A stretch of DNA of 64,000 bases. Origin: Methylobacter sp. KS41. Its GTDB lineage: Bacteria; Pseudomonadota; Gammaproteobacteria; Methylococcales; Methylomonadaceae. Position 1 is the stretch's first letter; each line of letters opens with the position of its first letter. The stretch covers positions 124,001 to 188,000 of the forward strand of contig PHSP01000003.1 of NCBI GenBank assembly GCA_002862125.1, in the 5' to 3' direction. Shown here piece by piece: positions 41,754 to 46,900 of this stretch. The notes below the pieces were generated by a model. The model did no database searches. It saw only the letters and a list, made by a program, of their open reading frames with translations, and was not told where the DNA came from. Position numbers and translations under genes: made by a program.

Positions 41754-42158
41754 CTATCGAGCAGGAGGCGCGCGTGGAGGGGGAGTTGGGATAATTAAAC
41801 GGTAAACTAATTGTTCCGGTTGCGGAGAAAAATTAGCATCATGCCTTGAGACAGGAGCATTGAATGAAACAGTCTGTTGATGCAGGTAATAATAGTTTTT
41901 TGAATCAGTCTGAGGATTCGCCTTATTTTGTTTAAGGCCCGCGTCAACGCCGACAATCAAGCCATCGACAGAGACATTGTATTGCAAGGTCTTCATTTGG
42001 TCCGAAAGCGGAGCATGTTCAACGCCAAAATGTTCAAGACCTGGAACATGCAGTCCCAGTTTTGAACTAAATCCGCTCGCATGGGCATGTACCAACGGTG
42101 CAATGAATTGCAGTATCGTCAGAAATATGACCAGAAATTTGCGGACTGATGAAAACAT
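41754..42158 (-). CDS. Small secreted His-containing protein heading the first efflux operon
   Basis: A protein of about 134 residues from the ATG at 42158 (MFSSVRKFLVIFLTILQFIA); a longer reading to 42206 adds 16 residues. The signal sequence ends at PLVHAHA. The mature part has scattered His (HASG, GLHVPGLEHFGVEH, YYLHQQTV, SRHDANFSP) and a Pro/Arg-rich end (IIPTPPPRAPPAR). I know no named family. Its position just before a CzcCBA operon suggests a periplasmic metal-binding accessory protein, as seen with small exported proteins in other metal loci. That role is inference. Confidence 0.65.
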   Translation of the reverse strand: MFSSVRKFLVIFLTILQFIAPLVHAHASGFSSKLGLHVPGLEHFGVEHAPLSDQMKTLQYNVSVDGLIVGVDAGLKQNKANPQTDSKNYYYLHQQTVSFNAPVSRHDANFSPQPEQLVYRLIIPTPPPRAPPAR

Positions 42159-42352
42159 GAGGATAATGCTATAGCAATAATAAACAATTAACAACTTGGC
42201 TGCCAACTTGGAACGTTGATTATAAGCCTAAATGTTAATTAAACCTTAAATATTTGCCAGGAGTTTGCTTCATTTACCCGAAGGATGCAGGGCTAGCCAG
42301 ACATGACAATTTTATTTAACCCGGTGATCGTATGAATAAATATACTAGTATT

Positions 42353-42532
42353 ATGCCCTTCGACAAGCTCAGGACCGGCTTTGACATGTTCCCGCGCCCT
42401 GCGTGGGAATGAAGACGAAGGTATGGCGTGTGTTCTGGATCGGCGGAATAATGTTTTGCCCGGATAGGTGGTGCTTTGATGTTTTGGGTTGAGATAAAAG
42501 CCGGTAGGCGTTCCCACGCAGAGCGTGGGAAC
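42353..42532. repeat. Cluster of common intergenic repeats including a perfect palindrome
   Basis: Contains GCCCTTCGACAAGCTCAGGA, TTCCCGCGCCCTGCGTGGGAA, and at 42510-42532 the perfect palindrome GTTCCCACGC-AGA-GCGTGGGAAC. All are of the kinds scattered through many proteobacterial genomes. The left copy of the direct repeat around mazEF begins directly after the palindrome. Confidence 0.6.
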
Positions 42533-42690
42533 GAGGAAAAGCTCTCCGGATAGGTAAAAGCGTTAGCCGTAACCCATCATAATTGATTTCTGATGAGATA
42601 GGTTTCGCGCGGCTATATCCATCCTACTCTTGGCTATCCACTTAAACCGGTGCAGATAGCATCCCTTAACATCAATGGACTCGATTGATT
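42533..42690 (+). repeat. Direct repeat, left copy, before mazEF
   Basis: About 158 bases, from GAGGAAAAGCTCTCCGGAT to CATCAATGGACTCGATTGAT, recur at 43350-43508 at roughly 85 percent identity (hand count). Inside each copy lies a palindromic part, TAGCCGTAACCCATCA against TGATGAGATAGGTTTCGCGC (imperfect). Confidence 0.8.
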
Positions 42691-42708
42691 GTTTTTCCTT
42701 CGTGAGTA

Positions 42709-42757
42709 TTGACAGATTAGATTTTCTGGTTATGATGGATATACATTGTTTATCCAT
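42709..42757 (+). promoter_or_regulatory. mazEF promoter with palindromic operator
   Basis: TTGACA at 42709-42714, 16-base spacer, TATGAT at 42731-42736, then the palindrome ATGGATA-N9-TATCCAT (42735-42757) overlapping the -10 box. An operator here is what autoregulated MazE-type antitoxins bind. ATG of mazE follows at 42771 with GGAG. Confidence 0.7.
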
Positions 42758-42770
42758 ACTGGAGAAAAAA

Positions 42771-43019
42771 ATGACTGTATCAGTCGCAAAATGGGGTAAT
42801 AGCCTTGCAGTACGCATTCCGGCATCTGAAGCGGCAAAAGCGGCAATCAAGGAAGGTGACGAAGTTGAATTATCCGCCTCGCAAAAAGGGCGCTTGATCA
42901 TACGAAAAATAAACAAAGATGAAAATTTTGATCATCTATATGCGCAAATGACAATCGATAATTGCCATTCGGAAACCGGCTGGGGTGTATCCGTGGGGCG
43001 TGAGAATATCGAATGGTAA
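42771..43019 (+). CDS. mazE: MazE-like antitoxin (AbrB/SpoVT fold)
   Basis: An 82-residue antitoxin. The N-terminal swapped-hairpin DNA-binding domain reads VAKWGNSLAVRIPASEAAKA, then EGDEVELSASQKGRLIIRK. The acidic C-terminal part (KDENFDHLYAQMTI) should bind and block the toxin. The ATG at 42771 is chosen for its ribosome-binding site and position behind the operator. It overlaps the toxin start by 7 bases. Confidence 0.9.
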   Translation: MTVSVAKWGNSLAVRIPASEAAKAAIKEGDEVELSASQKGRLIIRKINKDENFDHLYAQMTIDNCHSETGWGVSVGRENIEW

Positions 43020-43360
43020 ACGTTAGCGGCTATGTCCCCGAGCGTGGTGATCTGGTCTGGCTAAACTTTGATCCGCAGAAAGGCAGCGAACAAGCCGGTA
43101 TTCGCCCTGCGCTGGTATTGTCCCGTGCGGCTTATAACTGTTTTGGTCTATGCCTGCTGTGTCCCGTCACATCAAAAATAAAAGGTTATCCTTTCGAAGT
43201 CGTCTTACCGGAAGATTCAGCCATTCACGGCGCTGTTTTGTGCGATCAAATTCGCTCAGTTGACTGGCGCGCCCGTCGCGTCAAAAAAGCGGGGGAAATA
43301 AAGCCGGATACCATGGAAAACGTGACCTTTTTTTCAGCTGGACTTGTGCAAGGAAAATAG
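43013..43360 (+). CDS. mazF: MazF-like endoribonuclease toxin
   Basis: A 115-residue PemK/MazF toxin that cuts mRNA at short sequences. The fold signature is PERGDLVWLNFDPQKGSEQAGIRP (split for quoting), ALVLSRAAYN, LCPVTSKIKGYPFEVVLP, and GAVLCDQIRSVDWRARR, with the catalytic Arg/Thr region kept. The last codons and the stop TAG fall inside the right-hand direct repeat. The module sits alone between two metal-efflux operons. Confidence 0.92.
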   Translation: MVNVSGYVPERGDLVWLNFDPQKGSEQAGIRPALVLSRAAYNCFGLCLLCPVTSKIKGYPFEVVLPEDSAIHGAVLCDQIRSVDWRARRVKKAGEIKPDTMENVTFFSAGLVQGK

Positions 43361-43508
43361 CTCGCCGGATGAGTAAAAGCGTTAGCCGGAACCCATCATA
43401 ATTGATTTCTGATGCGCTGGGTTTCGCGCAGCTATATCCATCCTACTTTTGGCTATCATTTCAGCCGGGGCAGCTAGCATTCCTTAACATCAATGAACCC
43501 CATTGATG
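43350..43508 (+). repeat. Direct repeat, right copy, after mazEF
   Basis: Second copy of the repeat at 42533-42690, same orientation, starting within the last codons of mazF (AAGGAAAATAGCTCGCCGGA). Recombination between the copies would remove mazE and mazF exactly. Confidence 0.8.
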
Positions 43509-43630
43509 CCGCGTTACTCACGTTTTACAAGAAGTGCTATTCACTGCTTTCGTGCAAAATTAAAGGACGGCATAATATCTTTGCTTTTTCTTCGTGTCTT
43601 CGTGGTGACGTGCCTTTTGATGTGCAGGCA

Positions 43631-43957
43631 CTATCCCAAATCCGGATTTCTCTCACCGGTGCTGATCCTGCCACCCTCAAGCATATCAATGATATACACT
43701 TTGCCGTCGCCATGCTGTCCGCTATACGCAGCACGCATGATGGTTTCAAAAATGGTTTCCACCAGATTGTCCGGGGCGAAAATTTCAAGACGCTTTTTAG
43801 GCAGGAATGGTTTGTAATCCTGAATGTGGTGAGTACGCTCGCGTCCAAAACCCTCGCAATCGATAATCGACATGCCGGGAAAGCCTGGAATTTCCAGCAA
43901 TGCCAACGTTACTTGGCTTAGCTTGTGAGGTTGGATAAAGGCGCGTATTTCTTTCAT
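43631..43957 (-). CDS. PII-like protein of a metal efflux operon
   Basis: A 108-residue PII-fold protein. It begins like GlnB (MKEIRAFIQPHKLSQVTLAL) and contains FPGMSIIDCEGFGRERTHH, KKRLEIFAPDNLVETIFETI and GKVYIIDMLEGGRISTGE. The T-loop is much shorter than in GlnB, has no uridylylated Tyr and carries a His-His pair, so it should not do standard nitrogen signalling. PII homologues linked to heavy-metal RND genes are known as a separate group (PII-NG). AAAGGAAAA precedes ATG; it lies 9 bases after the pump gene as last gene of the operon. Confidence 0.85.
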   Translation of the reverse strand: MKEIRAFIQPHKLSQVTLALLEIPGFPGMSIIDCEGFGRERTHHIQDYKPFLPKKRLEIFAPDNLVETIFETIMRAAYSGQHGDGKVYIIDMLEGGRISTGERNPDLG

Positions 43958-43966
43958 GATTTTCCT

Positions 43967-46900
43967 TTAAAGTTCGTCAGGTTCTGCAAAATAGCGATAC
44001 AGCGCCGGCAACAGCGTCAAGGTCAAAATAGTCGCCGTCAGCAAACCGCCTATAATGACCACGGCGAATGGTTTTGCCGTTTCCGAACCGACACTGGTCG
44101 AAAGCGCTGCGGGAAACAGTCCCAGCATTGCCATCAGCGCGGTCATCACTACCGGCCTGAGACGGCTGACGGAGCCATTGACAATGGCATTATGCAACGA
44201 CTGGCCTTCCCTGCGCAGTTTATTCAGCTGCGAAACCAGAATCACGCCGTTTTGTACGGCAATGCCGAATAGCGCGATAAAACCGACCGCTGCCGAAACA
44301 CTGAGATTAATCCCGGTTGCCAATAAAATAAGGATACCACCGATCATCGCAAAAGGCACGTTCATGAGAATCAGAAACGCATTCTTAATGGACATAAAGG
44401 CCCAGAACAACAATACAAAGATCAGTCCCAAACTGATTGGCACGATGAACGACAAGCGCTTCATCGCGCGTTGCTGATTTTCAAATTGTCCGCTCCAGAG
44501 TATGTGGTAACCGTCCGGCAGATCCACCTGGGCCGCCACTTTTCGTTGGGCTTCGGCGACAAAGCTGCCCTGATCGCGGTCTATCAGATTACATTTGATC
44601 GCAATTCTGCGCATGTTCTCTTCCCGGCTGATCTTGGATGCGCCCTGATTGATTCTAATCTCGGCCAGTTCAGACAGTGGAATGCGCTTGCCATCAGGCG
44701 TTTGCACCGTCAGGTTTTCCAGCCCCGAAACCGAGTTACGGGCGTTATCTTCATAACGGAGAGTAATATCGAAACGCCGGTCCCCTTCCAGAAACTGCGA
44801 AGCCGCCTTGCCGCCCATGCCGATTTCGATCACGCGTTCGACATCAGCGACATTGATGCCGTAACGTGACACTTTGGCGCGGTCGATATCAACCATTACC
44901 TGCGCCAAACCCGCCTGCTGTTCCGCGGCGACATCGGTAGCGCCCTGAATCGAGGCAATAATGTGAGTGACTTGATTGGCCTTTTCCTGCAGGATTTTCA
45001 GATCGCCGCCGAATATTTTGACGGCAATTTCACCCTTGACCCCGGAAATGGCTTCTTCAACGTTATCCTGAATCACCTGCGAAAAGTTAGTGAGATTTCC
45101 CGGAAAGATAGACAGCATTTTGTCCATCGCCTCCACCAGATCGTCCTTTTTCTTATAACGCCAGGTGTTTTTGGGTTTGAGATCGATCAACACCTCAAGA
45201 TTGTTGAAACCCTTGGGATCGGTGCCGTCTTCCGGCCGTCCCAGCTGGGTCAACACCATTTTGGCCTCGGTAAATGTTTCCAGTTTCTCCCGCACCTTGC
45301 GTTCGAAATCCTTGGCGGTAGCCAGCGATACCGGAGTAGGCAAGGTAATGGTCAGCCAGATATTGCCTTCATCCAGCTTAGGCATGAATTCGGTGCCGAT
45401 CATGCGCACCAGCACGAAACTCAACGCCAACGCGGCGATTGCCGAAATAAATACGGTGCGGGCATTCTTCAGCACCCATTCCAGAATTCGCCGGTAATGA
45501 TGTTCCATCTTGTGAACCATCGGATTATGAGTTTCGGCAATTTTCGGCCCCAATAGATAGGTCAGCATAGCCGGTACAAAAGTCAGGCTGAACAGCATTG
45601 ATGCCACCAGTGCGAAACTGAGCGTAAAAGCCATTGGCGAGAAAATTTTAGCTTCCACCCGCTGAAAAGTAAAAATCGGTAAAAAAGCGCAGATGATAAT
45701 GGCTTTTGAAAACAAAATCGGCCGTCCCATATCCGTCGCCGTATTCAGCAGGGTTTGCCGTAAATGGCGCAGGTCGGCATTGCGCTGCAAATCCAGGGTC
45801 ACTTGCACCATTACCGCCTCGACCAATACCACGGCGCTGTCGACGATGATGCCGAAGTCAATGGCGCCCAGAGAAATCAAGTTGGCGGAAATGCCGTTGA
45901 GGTCGACCAGAATAAACGCGAACAGCAACGATAACGGAATGATCAGCGTGATCAGAAAGGCCGCCATAAAACGCCGCAGAAACACCAGCAGGATGATCAT
46001 GATCAGCGTAGCGCCCTCGAACATGTTGTGCTCGACTGTACGGATGGTATGGTCAACCAATTGCGTGCGATCATAAATCGGGGTGATTTTGACGCCGGGC
46101 GGCAGGCCAAAATCGTTCAGGTCGTCAATTTTCTCTTTGACGCCGGCCAGCACTTTGACTGCATCTTGGCCTTTGATCAGCAGCACGATGCCTTCGACAA
46201 TATCGTCGCGCTTGTCCATGGCGACGATGCCGGTGCGCGGCTGCGGGCCTATGCTGATATCGGCGACATCCTTGATGCGCACCGGCACGCCCTCATTAGC
46301 GGTGATGACGATGTCGCCGATTTCCCCGGCGGACTTCAACAAGCCTATGCCTCTCACAACCAGGGCTTCGTCGCCATATTTTATATAGCCTCCGCCGGTG
46401 TTGTTATTATTGGCGGCAATGGCGTCGAACACCTGGTTGAGATCGAGGCCGTAGTTTTTCAGGCGATCAGGTTTGGCGGCAACTTTGTACTCTTTGACGC
46501 CGCCGCCGAAAGATACGACATCCGCGACGCCCTGAACCGTGCGGATTTTCGGTTCTATCACCCAGTCCTGCAAGGCGCGTTGTTCGATCAACGGCAAATG
46601 TTTTGCATCGATGACATAACGTAAAATTTCGCCGATGCCGGTTGACAATGGTCCGAGCTGAGGCTTGCTGTCGCTGGGTATGTCAGCATTTTGCAAACGC
46701 TCCAATACCTGTTGCCGGGAAAAATAATCCTCGGCGGTATCATCGAAAGTCAGGGTAACCACCGATAGACCGAATATGGAAACAGAACGCATGTTCATCA
46801 AATGCGGCAAGCCGTTCATCACCCGTTCTATCGGCAACGATATAAGCTTTTCCACTTCTTCCGGCGCCTGGCCGGGATATTGCGTTACCACCTGCACGAA

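Follow-up and report, generated by a model that had tools for sequence, protein, structure and literature searches.

Introduction

Restriction-modification genes are reported to insert with 'long and variable target duplications' (PMC1643837, PMC3031569), a mode of insertion that goes back to Nobusato et al. (2000, Gene 259:99-108) as recounted in passages of those two papers and of PMC4978471. Addiction models, in the portion of PMC2654758 drawn on here, lead to the expectation that a toxin will oppose the loss of its own module. In the literature searched, a set with most subscription papers outside it, no such target-duplicating insertion of a toxin-antitoxin module was found. A second group of relevant elements consists of the GTAG-tagged REP dimers, covered in part of PMC3733652, and the REPINs, covered in part of PMC3116915, both of which have a palindromic layout like that of the genus consensus described below.

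Here we analyze a mazEF locus in Methylobacter sp. KS41 at which the toxin-antitoxin pair is bracketed by two long direct repeats. The window is the whole 64,000-nucleotide stretch of DNA that was analyzed, and comparisons were made with a genus set of 35 genomes, its own included. We read the locus as a genuine and old insertion, at a REP-bearing site, of a toxin-antitoxin pair of a common type, most likely accompanied by a long target duplication.

Results

mazEF lies between two direct repeats

The principal features of the locus are as follows.

42537 to 42689, + strand: left copy of the 153-bp direct repeat
42690 to 43360, + strand: mazEF block, comprising both genes and about 80 bp upstream of them (alignment with five relatives, boundaries by eye)
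42771 to 43019, + strand: mazE antitoxin, 82 aa (PF04014, E = 2.1e-12; start chosen by agreement with relatives)
43013 to 43360, + strand: mazF, predicted endoribonuclease toxin, 115 aa (PF02452, E = 1.2e-27; NF007386)
43356 to 43507, + strand: right direct-repeat copy; the single copy in genome G022 is collinear with it
43631 to 43957, - strand: terminal P-II-like gene of the right-hand efflux operon, the locus anchor in relatives (PF00543, E = 1.1e-17)

The two repeats are 153 bp long, lie on the same strand and are 87% identical, close to the 158 bp and approximately 85% given in the initial annotation. A 153-bp query run against the 4.74-Mb genome (4 contigs; E <= 1) matched in two places, both at the mazEF locus and one on either side of the module, with E = 5.9e-47 for the second copy. 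The right copy had been said to begin within the end of mazF, and its start does fall in the last codon and stop of that gene. The module also sits, as originally proposed, between two metal-efflux operons, which we named CzcCBA-like by eye from their ORFs. An Rfam search of 42000-44200 gave no match up to E 1, and a plasmid collection searched in distant mode with 42400-43700 gave none at 1e-5. The attC layout of integron gene cassettes does not seem to fit the 153-bp repeat. Immediately left of the left copy lies another type of palindromic repeat, GTTCCCACGC...GCGTGGGAAC, whose two members (42378-42409 and 42511-42542) form an inverted pair with 32-nt arms that are 81% complementary.

By domains and order, the gene pair is a mazEF type II toxin-antitoxin module, in which MazF would cleave mRNA and be neutralised by MazE: a MazE-type domain lies upstream of a MazF/PemK domain, and PF04014 and PF02452 both score over their cut-offs. 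MazF passes the NCBIfam MazF equivalog NF007386 (132.2 vs. a cut-off of 120 bits) and matches the solved MazF structure 7d28 (E = 6.3e-33), while MazE falls under the cut-off of the MazE equivalog NF007312 (36.9 vs. 113 bits). The mazF start at 43013 is apparently an ATG that overlaps the mazE stop; the ATG found just after the mazE stop in relatives is absent from the window. A second, distant MazF-like gene with 40% identity is present elsewhere in the same genome (G000:C1:1602042-1602344).

The repeat combines a decayed REP doublet with site-specific DNA

Each copy of the repeat can be divided into segments of different kinds.

42548 to 42627, + strand: left copy of a decayed GTAG-type REP doublet, a REPIN-like palindrome (matches the genus-copy consensus; layout as in the cited part of PMC3733652)
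42631 to 42655, + strand: left copy of a second short interspersed repeat, GGCTATCNACTTAAACCGGG type (pattern search, genus genomes)
42657 to 42689, + strand: site-specific end, left copy (22-base pattern search in 35 genomes; alignment)
43367 to 43446, + strand: decayed REP doublet, right copy (genus-copy consensus)
43475 to 43507, + strand: site-specific end, right copy (22-base pattern search)

A window copy of the repeat was matched in 12 of the 35 genus genomes (E <= 0.01), and a consensus built from aligned copies was matched in 23 of them (E <= 0.001), with up to 47 matches per genome and four in the genome studied here. The core of this consensus is a palindrome of approximately 84 bp bounded by GTAG and CTAC. 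It consists of two inverted REPs with GTAG ends, copies in relatives match on both strands, and the left GTAG has been lost from the window copies. Most of the 153-bp repeat is, as judged from its letters, a decayed REP doublet of the GTAG/REPIN type. Folding of four window segments as DNA gave z-scores of -0.53 to -1.22.

The palindrome is followed by the second short interspersed repeat, found at no more than two mismatches in 22 of the 35 genomes (own included), and then by approximately 33 bp of site-specific DNA that closes each copy. A 22-base pattern taken from this end occurs at up to two mismatches twice at this locus and once in G022 among the 35 genomes. At three mismatches there are seven further matches, one in each of seven genomes, and the reversed control pattern gave three matches at up to three mismatches. 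Aligned in register from the printed letters, the left and right site-specific ends differ at 4 of 33 bases.

These observations bear on the possibility that two independent insertions of a common REP happened to flank mazEF. The core is indeed an interspersed family, present in 23 genomes of the set, as chance placement would suppose; however, the family has only four matches in this genome, and the two copies have, in register with each other, both the second repeat and the site-specific end. This shared end already contradicts that possibility. Since both copies share the site-specific end, they point to local duplication of one site as opposed to two chance REPs, and we regard coincidence as scarcely credible. 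The repeat was also part of the target, as it contains site-specific DNA.

The REP family adjoins a small transposase gene in two relatives. The G032:C139 protein matches Y1_Tnp (PF01797, E = 2.6e-6), and the protein at G031:C233 is 69% identical to it. A REP-flanked transposase gene fits the RAYT arrangement in section 16 of PMC3733652. The association was seen at 2 of 30 fetched transposase loci (38 matches), the other 28 being without this REP, and no REP was seen beside those fetched from the genome studied here.

REPs were also encountered in other settings. G031:C130 and G031:C233 (L178, L179) contain several REP copies interspersed with small genes that by eye resemble nucleotidyltransferase/HEPN-type pairs, together with a REP-associated transposase gene. 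At G022:C448 (L180, 686-5464) two REP doublets adjoin two similar genes, with MLNISDTLHLIK... proteins, which suggests that these REP copies lie inside a larger tandem duplication.

The mazEF block is flush with the repeat copies

Five genus members (G007, G024, G017, G029 and G033) carry mazEF homologues with 80-83% protein identity, in each case on a contig other than the one bearing the P-II gene. Homology between the window and these relatives starts at approximately 42692-42697 and ends at the mazF stop (boundaries by eye), so that the shared block is flush with the copies, to within approximately 8 bases on the left. No REP doublet was seen beside the five mazEF homologues in the stretches fetched, as far as their contigs reach; four of the five stretches are short on one side at a contig end, and the G033 contig ends 16 bases after mazF. 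In G033 the short second repeat lies upstream of mazEF. A third context for mazEF is found at G017:C251 (L097, 1815-10535), where the module lies among ORFs that look type I restriction-like by eye and where homology with other mazEF copies extends from approximately 65 bp upstream of mazE to just past mazF.

The right junction has one further feature.

43351 to 43357, + strand: microhomology AGGAAAA; the same letters occur at 42534-42540, before the left copy

The mazF bases overlapped by the start of the right copy, AAGGAAAATAG, are native to mazF in all five relatives aligned. The true boundary is therefore the mazF stop codon, with a short microhomology accounting for the overlap. AGGAAAA at the mazF end is likewise native to mazF (5/5 relatives). 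Its position fits illegitimate or template-switch joining, but this is suggestive only, as a 7-base microhomology can arise by chance.

A relative carries one repeat copy and no mazEF

The initial annotation proposed comparing this locus in relatives for empty sites with a single repeat. Such a site was found at G022:C56, in the same genus, where one repeat copy and no mazEF lie with the same two efflux operons and the P-II-like gene. Alignment with the window runs through the P-II gene (82% identity over 1621 bp), and the single copy is collinear with the window's right copy. The G022 assembly is fragmented (710 contigs, 87% complete). The counter-case, in which a common REP sits beside mazEF by chance and relatives show no empty site, thus departs from what was found: the core does belong to a REP family, yet the two copies represent a duplication and one relative has an empty site.

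Among 20 P-II loci read, the other efflux operon is kept only in G022 and G010; at 15 the left side is occupied by other genes, and three (G002, G015 and G026) are too short to judge. In G015 and G002, whose P-II flanks appear related by eye, no copy was present in the 315 and 622 bases, respectively, left of P-II to the contig end. The G022 interval also contains a Tim44-like gene (PF04280). In G010 a Tim44-like gene 85% identical to that of G022 precedes three ORFs, of which the first looks by eye like a transposase gene, and the interval has no repeat copy, though both efflux operons are present. The Tim44-like protein has no match in the genome studied here; the two sites therefore differ by more than mazEF, and the gene has probably been lost from this genome, to judge from these comparisons.

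The three repeat copies allow the age of the duplication to be considered. The left and right copies are identical at 124 of 141 positions, compared with 109/138 for left vs. G022 and 110/137 for right vs. G022. At 31 sites two of the three copies agree: left and right share a base against G022 at 19, left agrees with G022 at 6, and right agrees with G022 at 6. At 6 further variable sites all three differ. As the window copies are closer to each other than to the G022 copy, the duplication appears to postdate the divergence from G022, provided that gene conversion has not kept the copies alike; conversion between them could mimic a late duplication.

The same comparison is relevant to a history in which a repeat-mazEF-repeat arrangement was ancestral and mazEF was deleted in G022 when the copies recombined, one of them remaining as a scar. 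Such recombination, which the initial annotation said would delete the module cleanly, would leave a one-copy arrangement, and G022 has the expected product; gene conversion could also account for the likeness of the window pair. That pair is nevertheless closer to itself than to the G022 copy, G010, G015, G020 and G022 have no MazF match at E <= 1e-20, and no MazF lies beside P-II in G020 or G010. We consider ancestral presence followed by loss distinctly unlikely.

Alternatively, the REPIN and its flanks could have been duplicated in tandem before mazEF entered between the copies. Nearly identical REPINs with flanking sequences do occur in tandem arrays in Pseudomonas fluorescens SBW25, according to part of PMC3116915. 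This order requires two events, however, and mazEF must have landed at the tandem boundary for its ends to be flush, while the G022 site has no tandem pair. Prior tandem duplication is in our estimation unlikely.

REPs near other toxin modules

The initial annotation also suggested that the module could move as a cassette between sites carrying the repeat. In its explicit form, a mazEF circle with one repeat would integrate wherever the repeat is present. Related arrangements were seen in three other genomes, in which same-orientation REP pieces bracket toxin genes. At G020:C101 (L155, reverse strand 405-1622), HicB/HicA genes lie between two same-orientation REP doublets; the HicB-like protein matches PF15919 (E = 1.1e-8) and the HicA match is weak (22.1 bits, under the cut-off). 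A partial P-II gene on this contig has a flank like the window's and lies approximately 2.2 kb from the right REP doublet, with three ORFs between them, one of which was scanned and gave no Pfam match. TacA (PF08681) and a GNAT protein lie between two partial REPs at G012:C48, and ParE (PF05016), with a relative in G020:C555, lies between REP pieces at G015:C567. Elsewhere, REP pairs enclose no ORF, a transposase gene, or an ORF resembling CCDC90 that scores just below its Pfam cut-off. The proposal that other gene pairs would be found between two copies is therefore borne out in part, by toxin pairs between REPs, but these are bare or partial REPs in which no shared site-specific end was seen.

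Movement as a cassette was not supported. REP was found at 0 of 29 fetched MazF-family loci (of 35 matches beyond the window's own), a weak control because 22 of the 29 are from other genera and only 7 from this one. The five mazEF homologues lack the doublet to their contig ends, the repeat includes site-specific target DNA, and of 60 ParE and HicA loci fetched from seven REP-bearing genus members, 2 had a REP. Integration of circles at pre-existing repeats is on these grounds very unlikely.

ParE gave 52 matches, of which 30 were fetched, and HicA gave 30, all fetched, in the seven REP-bearing genus members. By coordinates, REP lies within 600 bp of at least 3 of the 22 unfetched ParE matches (G015:C231, G020:C555 and G020:C711). 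The number of ParE and HicA loci with REP is thus at least 5 of 82, a count in which G015:C567 and G020:C555 look like the same locus, and the rough expectation from REP density (181 matches in approximately 26 Mb) is 1 to 2. Across these 82 matches in seven genus members a general tie between REPs and toxin modules was not clearly found, and there may be a weak preference of toxin modules for REP-bearing gaps. A stronger proposal is that REPIN palindromes are preferred landing or break sites for toxin-antitoxin modules in these methanotrophs, with modules settling beside or between REPs (mazEF here, HicB/HicA in G020, TacA/GNAT in G012, ParE in G015) and direct copies allowing later loss. We view this proposal as doubtful.

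Discussion

Taken together, these data lead us to favor, by a modest measure, insertion of mazEF with an approximately 150-bp target duplication at a REPIN-bearing intergenic site. A target duplication should leave the single-copy target without the insert in a relative, which was seen at G022:C56, in one genome only and in an interval that also holds the Tim44-like gene. The repeat should also be target DNA, to which the 22-base end pattern and the five mazEF homologues lacking the REP doublet, to their contig ends, both point.

Under the favored reading, the intergenic target would already have held a REPIN-type palindrome before mazEF arrived. A block of approximately 670 bp would then have entered the site, with approximately 150 bp of target duplicated and one copy left on each side. 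The duplication would have been made in the insertion event itself, through a template switch or through additive illegitimate recombination, and the 7-base AGGAAAA microhomology would plausibly mark where the right joint formed. The module could be lost later if the two copies recombined, which would leave a one-copy arrangement like that of G022. MazF killing would be expected, by analogy, to counteract such loss, and recombination should now be less frequent because the copies have diverged.

If correct, this interpretation provides a before-and-after pair for the entry of a small toxin-antitoxin module into a chromosome, at a locus where the repeats enclose no transposase gene, and carries an insertion pattern known from restriction-modification genes over to a toxin-antitoxin pair. 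With its direct copies, the locus would also lend itself naturally to testing whether a toxin guards the DNA that encodes it against deletion.

In comparison with known systems, the genes themselves are like chromosomal mazEF modules in their antitoxin-toxin order, their overlap and their MazE_antitoxin and PemK/MazF domains, and no unusual feature was seen in them. The repeat resembles the GTAG REP dimers and REPINs with RAYT, as presented in parts of PMC3733652 and PMC3116915, in being an interspersed palindromic doublet with outward GTAG/CTAC ends that lies beside a Y1-type transposase gene at G032:C139 and G031:C233. It differs in the decay of both window copies and in that site-specific DNA beside the palindrome was duplicated along with it, which transposition of a REPIN by itself would not produce. 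A further parallel is with the insertions with long target duplication, as related in PMC1643837, PMC3031569 and PMC4978471: in both, a compact addiction-type unit lies between long direct repeats, and a related genome lacks the unit and the duplication. Those cases involve restriction-modification genes compared among Helicobacter pylori strains, whereas the locus described here involves a type II toxin-antitoxin pair, a comparison across species, and a duplicated target that contains a REPIN.
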